32,335 bases of DNA. Source: Lachnospiraceae bacterium (GTDB lineage: Bacteria > Bacillota > Clostridia > Lachnospirales > Lachnospiraceae). This document shows positions 7,601-20,649 of this stretch, piece after piece. How positions within the stretch are numbered: position 1 is the stretch's first letter; every line of letters starts with the position of its first letter. The notes beneath the pieces were generated by a model, which had not been told where the DNA came from, searched no databases, and saw only the letters and a list, made by a program, of their open reading frames with translations. The translations under genes were made by a program, and so were the position numbers. The stretch is taken from the NCBI GenBank assembly GCA_016288495.1, contig JAEEZH010000033.1:1-32335 (forward strand). The letters run 5' to 3'.

Positions 7601-9838
7601 ATGGACTATTTTTTTGACAAACTATCCGACAGGATCAATGCATCCCAGGACCGGGGAGCAGGAAGAGATTATGAGCAGAGTTCACAGTCACAGACTGCTG
7701 CACCTGCTGTGGATAATTCCGAGCTGGAAAAGATCATAGACGAGAGGCTTGCGCTGTTTCGGGATCAGATCGTCGAGGATTTAAAGACGAGCGTAGTCAA
7801 GAGTGTCAATGATTCAAATTCCATGTATGTGGAGATGATCACCCACAGCAATGATGAGGGAAATACAGCCCGGCTTTCCGCTACCGAGGAGATCATGTCT
7901 GCCCTGGCATCCACCAAGAACGATCTTTCGGATGCCATAAGCATGAACGGCCATGCGACCAAGGAAGAACTGACGGAGATCATTACCCGCCTTCAGGACG
8001 AATATCTTACCAGAGAGGATCTTATTGATTCCGTAGCGGAGAGGATGTCTGCTTCGGAAGAGATCATGTCTGCCCTTGCATCTACCAAGAACGATCTTTC
8101 GGATGCCATCAATTCCGGTAATTACGCAGTTCAGGAGAGCCTGACAGAGATAATAGCAAAGCAGTCTCAGCAGTCACGTCTGCCCGAGGAAGTGGTTTCC
8201 GAGATAGCAGAAGAAGTGGCTTACAGGGTGAGACAGGACCAGGGCGCGCCGATATCCGAGGAGGGTATAGCGGAGGCTGTGGCGGCGGCTTTGGCAGTAT
8301 CGCTGAGAGCCCCTGCATCAAAGGAGGAAATAGCAGGAGAAGTAGCGGATACTCTGGCAGAGACGCTTGATTCCCATAAGCTGGAGATATCGGAGATCGC
8401 GGAAGCGGTAGCTGAAAAGGTCCGTGAAGACAGGACAGAGCCTGTGTCAAAGGAAGAGATAGCACAGGTTGTAGAGGAAATAGTCCGTGAAAACAGGACA
8501 GAGCCTGTATCCAGAGAAGAGATAGCCCGGGTCGTAGAAGAGATAGTCCGTGAGAACAGGACAGAGCCTGTTTCCAAGGAGGATATAGCAGCTGCGGTAG
8601 CTGCGGATATGGCAGTTACACTGGCAGCCCAGAGGCTGGAGATATCGGAGATCGCGGAAGCGGTAGCGGGGAAGGTCCGTGAGAACCAGATCATTCCCGT
8701 GTCCGAGGAGGAGATCGCCCGCATCCTGTCCGAGAAGATCCGTGAGAACAGGGTAGAGCCTGTATCAAAGGAAGAGATCGCTCAGATCGTTGAGGAAAAG
8801 GTACAGGAAAACAAGGTCATCCCGGTATCCAAAGAAGAGATCGCAGGGGTTGTAGAGGAAATAGTCCGTGAAAACAGGACAGAGCCCGTATCGAAGGAAG
8901 AGATAGCCCGGGTCGTAGAGGAGATAGTCCGTGAGAACAGGACGGAGCCTGTTTCCAAGGAGGATATAGCAGCTGCGGTAGCTGCGGATATGGCAGTTAC
9001 ACTGGCAGCTCAGAAGCTGGAGATATCGGATATTGCGGAAGCGGTAGCAGGTAAGGTCCGTGAGAACCAGATCGTTCCCGTGTCCGAGGAGGAGATCGCC
9101 CGCATCCTGTCCGAGAAGATCCGTGAGAACAGGATAGAGCCTGTATCAAAGGAAGAGATTGCTCAGATCGTTGAGGAAAAGGTACAGGAAAACAAGGTCA
9201 TTCCGGTATCGAAAGAAGAGATAGCAGGGGTTGTAGAGGAAAAGATCCAGGCGAACAAGGTCGTTCCGGTATCGAAAGATGAGATAGCCCGGGTCGTAGA
9301 CGAAAAGATACGGGAATACAAGTCTGATATCCTGGCTGCCCTGAGTGTGGCAAAGAATGAGCTTTCCGACAATATAATCGCAGGCTTCGAGAAAGAGGAT
9401 GCCGGCGTGGCAGGGGCGGTCAATGCTTCCGGTTCAGCGGTGAAGCAGGAACTGACCGAAACCATCAACAGATCCACGGAAGAACTTTCCGATCATATGC
9501 ATAAGGAAAGCGTAAAGGTATATAAAAATGTCCAGGCGGTGCTGGAAGAGAGCTTCCGTACCCAGAATGAAAAAATGGATGCCGATGCGGCCAGCCGTGA
9601 CCAGAACCTGCGCAATGTCCTGGATGTCAGCATTAATTCCGCTCTTAAGGATAATCTTCGGGATGAGAGTGAAAATACGAAAAAGATCGTCAATGACACG
9701 GTGTCATCCCTGCTCAACACAAATACGGGAGAGAAGCTTTCTTCCATTAAGGGTATGCTTCTGGCGCTCATCTGTATGCTGGGCATCAATCTTCTCGGGA
9801 TCATAGTTATCCTGCTGTGGATCTTCCAGGTGATCTGA
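7601..9838 (+). CDS. Repeat-rich, highly charged coiled-coil-like protein with C-terminal transmembrane tail anchor
   Basis: RBS aaaggggtaagt-ATG. Many copies of a ~21-aa unit (PVSKEEIARVVEEIVRENRTE). C-terminal hydrophobic segment MLLALICMLGINLLGIIVILLWIFQVI. No N-terminal signal peptide. Confidence 0.85.
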   Translation: MDYFFDKLSDRINASQDRGAGRDYEQSSQSQTAAPAVDNSELEKIIDERLALFRDQIVEDLKTSVVKSVNDSNSMYVEMITHSNDEGNTARLSATEEIMSALASTKNDLSDAISMNGHATKEELTEIITRLQDEYLTREDLIDSVAERMSASEEIMSALASTKNDLSDAINSGNYAVQESLTEIIAKQSQQSRLPEEVVSEIAEEVAYRVRQDQGAPISEEGIAEAVAAALAVSLRAPASKEEIAGEVADTLAETLDSHKLEISEIAEAVAEKVREDRTEPVSKEEIAQVVEEIVRENRTEPVSREEIARVVEEIVRENRTEPVSKEDIAAAVAADMAVTLAAQRLEISEIAEAVAGKVRENQIIPVSEEEIARILSEKIRENRVEPVSKEEIAQIVEEKVQENKVIPVSKEEIAGVVEEIVRENRTEPVSKEEIARVVEEIVRENRTEPVSKEDIAAAVAADMAVTLAAQKLEISDIAEAVAGKVRENQIVPVSEEEIARILSEKIRENRIEPVSKEEIAQIVEEKVQENKVIPVSKEEIAGVVEEKIQANKVVPVSKDEIARVVDEKIREYKSDILAALSVAKNELSDNIIAGFEKEDAGVAGAVNASGSAVKQELTETINRSTEELSDHMHKESVKVYKNVQAVLEESFRTQNEKMDADAASRDQNLRNVLDVSINSALKDNLRDESENTKKIVNDTVSSLLNTNTGEKLSSIKGMLLALICMLGINLLGIIVILLWIFQVI
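8462..9223 (+). repeat. In-frame higher-order tandem duplication, 2 x 381 bp (127 aa), inside the repeat-rich CDS; a partial third copy begins at 9224
   Basis: gca(c/g)aggttgtagaggaaatagtccgtgaaaacaggacagagcc... at 8462 recurs near-identically at 8843; the same boundary recurs at 9224 (gcaggggttgtagaggaa) before diverging. tttccaaggaggatatagcagctgcggtagctgcgg at 8571 recurs at 8952 (offset 381). Confidence 0.88.
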
Positions 9839-16096: not shown

Positions 16097-16140
16097 CTCC
16101 TCCGGCTGTCATCTTAATGATGTCATTCTGAAAAGCCCCC

Positions 16141-16321
16141 GGCTGTTATTCTGAGGAGCACTATCCCAGCTGTCATTCTGAGGAACACTATCCCGGCTGT
16201 CATTCTGAGGAGCACTATCCCAGCTGTCATTCTGAGGAGCACTATCCCAGCTGTCATTCTGAGGAGCACTATCCCGGCTGTCATTCTGAGGAGCACTATC
16301 CCAGCTGTCATTCTGAGGAGC
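16141..16321. repeat. 27-bp tandem repeat array (6 full units plus a partial), consensus RGCTGTCATTCTGAGGAGCACTATCCC
   Basis: Units start at 16141, 16168, 16195, 16222, 16249, 16276 and 16303 (partial), with few substitutions. The array ends in a full-length palindromic element. Confidence 0.95.
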
Positions 16322-16349
16322 AAAGCGACGAAGAATCTTACAATGACAG
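16303..16349 (+). repeat. Palindromic intergenic element terminating the 27-bp array; overlaps the pfkA stop region
   Basis: agctgTCATTCTGAGGAGCAAAGCGACGAAGAATCTTACAATGACAg. Confidence 0.7.
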
Positions 16350-19133: not shown

Positions 19134-19163
19134 ATGTCATTCTGAGCGAAGCGAAGAATCTCT
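19134..19163 (+). repeat. Palindromic intergenic element (canonical form) at the left edge of the inverted-arm array
   Basis: gatgtcATTCTGAGCGAAGCGAAGAATctct. Confidence 0.8.
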
Positions 19164-19169
19164 TGTGCG

Positions 19170-19604
19170 TACGGACGAAATGAGAAAAAGGCAGAATCGT
19201 CTGTATAGATTCTGAGAATGCATACGGACGAAATCGGAAAAAGTAGAAATCGTCCGTACGGCGTCGGACTGGGATACGGACGAAACGAGTAAAAATGCAG
19301 AAATGTCTGTATTGATTTTGAGTTTGCATACGGACGAAACCATAAAATGATGAAATGGTCTGTATAGCGTCAGACAAGGATACGGACGAAACGAGCAAAA
19401 ACGCAGAATTGTCTGTATTGATTTTGAGTTTGCATACGGACGAAACCATGAAATGGTTAAATAGTCCGTATAGCGTCAGACAAGCATACGTACGAAATCA
19501 TAAAAATGCAGAATCGTCCGTATAGATTTTGAGAATGCATACGGACGAAATCGGAAAAAGTAGAAATCGTCCGTACAGCGTCGGACTGGGTTACGGGCAG
19601 AATA
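19170..19604. repeat. Array of 8 hairpin-forming units (plus a degenerate 9th) with alternating TACGGACGA / TCGTCCGTA arms and two alternating spacer classes
   Basis: Left arms start at 19170, 19223, 19275, 19329, 19381, 19435, 19487 (TACGTACGA), 19540 and 19592 (degenerate); spacings 53,52,54,52,54,52,53,52. Each is followed ~26-28 bp later by the inverted arm TCGTCCGTA or a variant. Confidence 0.93.
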
Positions 19605-19740: not shown

Positions 19741-20649
19741 ATGAAGGCGGTTTCATTTAGATGTGATGGTTGTGGAGCGGATCTTAAATTAAAATCGGGA
19801 ACAAAAAAGTGTGTTTGTGAATATTGTGGAACAGAACACATAATTGATGATGGACAAGTATATGGACAGGAATGTGTTGCTGATCCGGAATTGATTAAAA
19901 CCATTCGGATGTTGATTGAACCTGTTAGTGAATTGGAAAACTTATGTAAGAATAATGATCGAATAAAAAAGAAGCTTCAGGAATCGATAAAACGTGAGAA
20001 AACATTGAGGGAGGCACCATACACAACTGCGAGCATTGCAGGCGGTATAACCGCTGTTGTTGTTATGATTTTATTATTTTTCGTTTTGATTATTTTTTCT
20101 ATTCCTGTTGGCATAATAATTGGACTGATAGTGTTTGCATGTGTTTATTATTCTCAGAAATCTGAACAGGAAAGATTGGCTGCTAGTATTCCAAAGCTTA
20201 TTTCACAAATTGAATCAAATGAAAAAGAAATACAGTATTACAGAGAAATCTTGGAAAAATATGATGTAAGTATTTTACCTGTGCAGTATAGAAACAGAGA
20301 TGCAATGACTTTTTTCTGTGGGGTTATGGAAACAAATCGCGCAACTACACTGCAACAGGCAATGAATTTATATGAAGATGAGCTTCATCGTCGTGAACAA
20401 AAAGCTATGGCTCAAAAGCAAATTGATCTTCAGGAAGAGCAGATACGCTTGCAGAAAAAACAGATTGAGCAAATGAAAAATATGCATGATGATTATGACG
20501 ATGATGATGCCATGACAAAAGCTGTTACGGCAGGTGCGCTTGCTGTAGGAGGGGCATTGTTGGCAAATAAATCATTGAATAGAGCTGCAAAGAAAACTGC
20601 TAAAAAAGCGGCAGGTGCCGCGGTTAAAGAAATAATAAAGCGAATGTAA
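19741..20649 (+). CDS. Membrane protein with N-terminal zinc ribbon, TM hairpin and C-terminal coiled coil
   Basis: CDGCGADLKLKSGTKKCVCEYCGTEH (two CxxC pairs); hydrophobic ITAVVVMILLFFVLIIFSIPVGIIIGLIVFACVYY. RBS gggaggt. Confidence 0.8.
   Translation: MKAVSFRCDGCGADLKLKSGTKKCVCEYCGTEHIIDDGQVYGQECVADPELIKTIRMLIEPVSELENLCKNNDRIKKKLQESIKREKTLREAPYTTASIAGGITAVVVMILLFFVLIIFSIPVGIIIGLIVFACVYYSQKSEQERLAASIPKLISQIESNEKEIQYYREILEKYDVSILPVQYRNRDAMTFFCGVMETNRATTLQQAMNLYEDELHRREQKAMAQKQIDLQEEQIRLQKKQIEQMKNMHDDYDDDDAMTKAVTAGALAVGGALLANKSLNRAAKKTAKKAAGAAVKEIIKRM

Follow-up and report, generated by a model that had tools for sequence, protein, structure and literature searches.

The question raised by this locus is what a regular block of inverted DNA arms represents, and what might read it. 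The block lies in a 32,335-nucleotide stretch of DNA (the window) from a Lachnospiraceae MAG that is 82% complete (G000). It consists of eight imperfect palindromes of 36 or 37 bp at a step of 52.5 bp, each laid out as TACGGACGA, an A-rich middle and TCGTCYGTA (Table 1), so that the left arms and inverted right arms, eight of each, described by an earlier sequence-only reading are present where it had placed them. The exact pattern TACGGACGA-N14-20-GTCYGTA matches seven times in the window against 0.00 expected from 100 shuffles. Spacers of 17 and 16 bp alternate strictly and produce dimers of 105-106 bp. The same reading had seen a dimer of about 106 bp repeated four times in I-II-II-I order, and both the TRF result (period 106 bp, 4.0 copies) and the similarities among four 113-bp copies (spaced 106, 106, and 105 bp) agree with it: 92% between copies 1 and 4, and about 70% between copy 1 and each of copies 2 and 3. 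The even arm spacing of 26-27 bp that it reported was wrong: the distance between TACGG and CCGTA centres is about 31.5 bp within units and about 21 bp over the spacers.

Table 1. Features of the array and the gene downstream of it, in window coordinates.
Feature	Position	Strand	Remarks
Whole array	19170-19591		eight units at 19170-19575; TRF repeat at 19170-19586
Unit 1	19170-19205	+	36 bp; TACGGACGA...TCGTCTGTA
Unit 2	19223-19258	+	36 bp; TACGGACGA...TCGTCCGTA
Unit 3	19275-19311	+	37 bp
Unit 4	19329-19364	+	36 bp
Unit 5	19381-19417	+	37 bp
Unit 6	19435-19470	+	36 bp
Unit 7	19487-19522	+	36 bp; left arm TACGTACGA
Unit 8	19540-19575	+	identical to unit 2
Decayed ninth left arm	19592-19599	+	TACGGGCA; direct reading of the sequence
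Long spacers	19206-19222, 19312-19328, 19418-19434, 19523-19539	+	17 bp
Short spacers	19259-19274, 19365-19380, 19471-19486, 19576-19591	+	16 bp
Zinc-ribbon/membrane protein gene	19741-20649	+	302 aa; same strand, downstream

The zinc-ribbon gene starts 165 nt past the array, which is best read as a dispersed copy without a gene of its own, lying 5' of a zinc-ribbon gene pair. A coding explanation was rejected because units of 52/53/54 bp would not stay in frame and because relatives have the array between genes, and the idea of a promoter within the unit, suggested by a -10-like TATAAT after some units, was rejected because that motif is not conserved between units. The window array gave no match to Rfam at the gathering threshold. 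As had been argued from the letters, it is not a CRISPR, since its spacers repeat within the 105-bp dimer and the gene linked to such arrays is not cas. The window holds other repeats as well: a different palindromic repeat, GTCATTCTGAGCGAAGCGAAGAATCT, immediately 5' of the array (19136-19165), a 27-bp tandem repeat of another family, CCCAGCTGTCATTCTGAGGAGCACTAT, in 6.9 copies by TRF (16138-16322), and an ORF for a long repetitive protein with internal repeats of 63/126/381 bp (7601-9838).

The suggestion of a dispersed family was borne out in the genome and its relatives. The genome of the window carries eight array loci and the sister species Lachnospiraceae RGIG2871 (G002), from goat omasum, carries 81 units at about 16 loci, counts that are lower bounds because all genomes used from the genus are incomplete assemblies whose contigs often end in arrays. 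Two further members of the genus, G001 and G003, have no unit by the arm model. Contigs L026, L108, L140, and L179 (from G012, G024, G106, and G362, respectively) also end in or beside arrays, which makes the array counts of those assemblies minimum values. Of 81 spacer transitions across 20 arrays, 79 keep to the alternation of long and short, with spacer sequences that are largely unrelated. Arrays are gained and lost at orthologous sites, and unit counts differ between species: the ftsH-uvrC junction holds eight units in G000, two in G002, and none in G003, where the two genes nearly touch; the site upstream of a sugar kinase holds one unit in G000 and six in G002, with a private mutation common to the last unit; era is preceded by no units in G000 and many in G002; and fhs is preceded by three units in G000 and none in G001 or G003. 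Matches of the array to IMG/VR were rejected as chance matches inside phage coding sequence.

Exact triple-arm matches, sought in 85,000 genomes, occurred only in RGIG2871. A family confined to one genus was nonetheless rejected, as a weak model match in another genus (L028) has the same architecture with different arms, TACGGTTG...CAACCGTA. About 20 of the 397 Lachnospiraceae genomes yielded repeated tandem matches to a generic pattern, TACGG-N24-28-CCGTA-N14-18-TACGG (up to 41 per genome on one strand), while the reversed pattern, used as a control, gave almost none in the same genomes. Among the related arrays, which are spread over about 18 Lachnospiraceae genera, only the outer TACGG/CCGTA is constant, and the inner arm letters vary by genus (ACGA, TTG, CTG, TGT, ATGA, TGG, and others). 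The step of these TACGG-type arrays is always 52-53 bp, composed of unit and spacer as 35+17, 36+16, 37+16, or 38+15, and the two lengths are anticorrelated both among 19 lineages (r -0.755, permutation p 0.0004) and with one lineage per genus (r -0.789, p 0.0003). Mean distances between TACGG centres are 31.65 bp within the unit and 20.91 bp across the spacer, or 3.02 and 1.99 turns at 10.5 bp per turn. Unit and spacer lengths thus compensate to keep the centres 3.0 and 2.0 turns apart on one face of the DNA. This replaces the half-period of about 2.5 helical turns put forward earlier with a phasing of 3 + 2 turns, and it lends support from about 18 genera to the accompanying proposal that a dimeric DNA-binding protein would meet its sites at a regular helical phase.

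Inverted arms could equally be the stems of an RNA. From genus to genus, the inner arms change in concert (positions 6, 7, and 9, p<0.0005; position 8, p 0.0035), and pairing between left and right letters exceeds that in global shuffles. Within a genus, the letters of the left arm at positions 6-9 vary independently of those of the right arm, the observed pairs matching within-genus shuffles (p 0.33-0.94), and a test for a structured RNA family found no compensatory base changes. In the genus of the window, arms have R at position 4, K at position 8, and an occasional T at position 5, each half independent of its partner. Joint change between genera without compensation within them makes the arms look like protein half-sites and not stems; independent letters are what would be expected of a protein reading two half-sites, as opposed to a base-paired stem. 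By the covariation of arms, which the earlier reading had itself named as decisive, the hairpin interpretation fails and that of protein sites stays, and its two mutually exclusive hairpin registers lose their standing as a functional feature, the unit arms showing no mutual compensation within genomes. RNA from the window array folds well on both strands (z -6.6 and -7.3), so that this much of the expectation stood, although any inverted repeat must do so and the foldability is a by-product of the inverted repeats.

It is accordingly improbable, if the best placed of the alternatives, that the array is transcribed as a leader and, through its hairpins, governs the translation or stability of the gene behind it. 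In G000 and G002, each of the 22 arrays followed by a called gene lies upstream of that gene and co-oriented with it, a few of the gene calls being weak, and many end no more than 60 nt before the start codon (often 0-60 nt). G:U pairs at arm position 4 are strand-biased, and there is a mild inner-stem excess (mean z -0.81 +/- 0.21). Against these observations stand the missing compensation at positions 6-9, the G:A mismatch that 39 of 102 units have at pair 8, periods of whole helical turns that make no sense in RNA, and the situation in other genera, where the co-orientation bias is weaker (17 to 11) and some arrays sit between convergent genes.

A candidate for the protein that reads the arrays emerged from their neighbours. 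An unnamed protein family of about 265 aa has a gene immediately next to an array in eight genera, recurring among array neighbours in G024, G391, G383, G106, G103, G341, and G269; in the genome of the window, array C222 adjoins a member. The family is present in 37 of 391 sampled Clostridia genomes, often in six or more copies each. It has no match among Pfam or NCBIfam models, no relative among PDB sequences or in IMG/VR, and no full-length relative in plasmids; three low-identity matches were found in phage-labelled faecal contigs. The last 120 residues of the protein match the C-terminal end of two PADLOC candidates, PDC-S68 (14 of 14 members, to 5e-28) and HEAT_CxxC_PDDEXK (12 of 14), and the C-terminal part also matches part of plasmid ATPase/helicase genes. 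Invariant residues are RSKSE, YE, PDF, and Y-EH, and the usual PD-(D/E)XK lysine is not evident. Because of these C-terminal matches and invariant residues, we describe the domain as PD-(D/E)XK-like, that is, a putative nuclease. The PADLOC proteins share the homologous C-terminal domain and differ in being larger fusions, whereas the proteins described here stand alone and are accompanied by arrays.

The strongest evidence for the pairing comes from starting at the gene. Counting as an upstream array any TRF repeat of score >=100 that ends <=500 nt before the gene start, we found one at 49 of the 98 family genes with upstream sequence and at none of 61 control genes, which establishes the linkage of gene and array. 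Three genes (L201, L202, and L207) are flanked on either side by arrays that share one period. Many upstream arrays lack TACGG, and their arms vary by locus, including TACGTGTCAAAA, GACACGCAAA, GGGGCAAA, GGCAACG, and TTTTGTTCGC. Four period ranges are seen among the upstream arrays, 51-54, 62-64, 71-75, and 83-85 bp, clustering near 52.5, 63, 73.5, and 84 bp; two values, 43 and 46, are low outliers. Measured against 10.5 bp, the periods have a phase of 0.08 bp and a Rayleigh R of 0.825 (p ~3e-15), and R is 0.78 (p ~4e-7) without the five-turn class, both p values being inflated by shared descent; a free scan of the modulus was best at 10.4 bp. Period classes that carry different arms in different families are hard to derive from a single ancestor. 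A diverged branch of the protein family (L209, L210, and L211) is without any upstream array, and in G001 a 62-bp periodic array with a 21-bp sub-unit lies downstream of a family gene (L330:2823-3088).

Tandem repeats directly upstream of a nuclease-like gene, on its strand, recall type III toxin-antitoxin modules such as ToxIN, TenpIN, and CptIN, the last known from Eubacterium rectale (PMC4627078). Such modules make a pseudoknot-forming repeat RNA that neutralises the toxin; here, RNA from the array would inhibit the nuclease encoded behind it. We consider such a module doubtful here, as the units are palindromic DNA sites phased to helical turns, arrays are also scattered at sites remote from the gene, and some genes carry one on either side; moreover, family searches point away from a ToxN/Kid fold or a ToxN/CptN/TenpN-type toxin, giving no Pfam match and returning PDC-S68/PDDEXK matches instead. 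No better placed is an ordinary operator array, the regulon of a host transcription factor with the nuclease-like genes as mere members. Phasing, half-site degeneracy, and the orientation and pre-gene placement in the genus of the window would suit it. A likeness to iterons and multi-operator arrays of DNA-binding proteins lies in the repeated half-sites at whole helical turns, which serve cooperative binding there and presumably here too. Yet paralogous modules of one genome differ in arms and periods (G106 has six modules with six arms in three period classes), so one host regulator cannot read them all, and the genes behind arrays are unrelated to one another and not conserved between sister species. 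Unlike iterons, the arrays form modules that recur in multiple copies across the chromosome, differ in their arms from locus to locus, and are partnered by a nuclease-like protein. Neutral growth of a tandem repeat by slippage, with its higher-order dimers and copy-number change typical of unequal exchange, is very improbable in view of arms preserved while unit interiors and spacers diverge, compensating lengths, and periods quantised by turns.

We therefore return to the protein-site reading, and give roughly 60% to the proposal that the window array is a dispersed, gene-free copy from a family of helically phased arrays, whose cognate protein would most likely be the ~265-aa family with the PD-(D/E)XK-like domain and genes beside arrays. 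Each unit would present two facing half-sites (TACRGACKA in the window) three helical turns apart, with half-sites of adjacent units two turns apart; all would then lie on one side of the DNA, where an oligomeric protein could bind and occupy them cooperatively. Gene and array together may constitute the autonomous form and the array alone a non-autonomous copy, which we infer to be mobile, entering intergenic gaps and then growing or shrinking by duplications of two units (105 bp). Slightly better than even, in our estimation, are the odds of the wider proposal: a two-part element that combines a protein bearing a PD-(D/E)XK domain with arrayed facing half-sites at 5, 6, 7, or 8 whole turns per repeat, a genome having several such modules that differ in their arms and that seed array-only copies around the chromosome, some able to sit in gene leaders.

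Several observations are weak points of this explanation. No array could be detected at half of the family genes. Two array carriers (G159 and G362) have no family gene that we found, and G002 and G096 have it only as a fragment or remnant; the only family gene found in the genome of the window has an in-frame deletion of RSKSE. Protein similarity and array-consensus similarity are weakly correlated (Mantel rho 0.07, p 0.07). The 22/22 orientation bias is not predicted by simple selfish spread, and in the genus of the window it leaves room for a leader function, through which arrays may affect neighbouring genes.

Among known systems, the best reading by analogy is a logic like that of REP/BIME/REPIN sequences and their RAYT (TnpA-REP) proteins, carried out by an unrelated enzyme. 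In those systems, dispersed intergenic palindromes flank a linked nuclease-type gene and occur as non-autonomous copies (PMC3116915, PMC3733652, PMC8266576), much as arrays occur here as dispersed non-autonomous intergenic copies and, at three loci, flank the gene. The linked protein is PD-(D/E)XK-like instead of a Y1 HUH (IS200/IS605-type) transposase, and the units follow one another head to tail, in tandem arrays that keep to whole turns of the DNA. In addition, REP palindromes are tagged by an unpaired GTAG or CGTC foot (PMC3733652), whereas the present units have no such foot, starting with TACGG, ending with CCGTA, and being fully paired. In the open-access literature searched, we found no prior description of the array and ~265-aa gene pairing.

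If this reading is true, a common, unnamed protein family of gut Clostridia would have its own readable DNA targets, making its specificity directly testable, and a nuclease-like class of enzyme would join those already credited with spreading palindromic repeats in bacteria. The quantisation of periods by whole turns would, in turn, amount to a natural experiment on cooperative protein assembly along one face of DNA.
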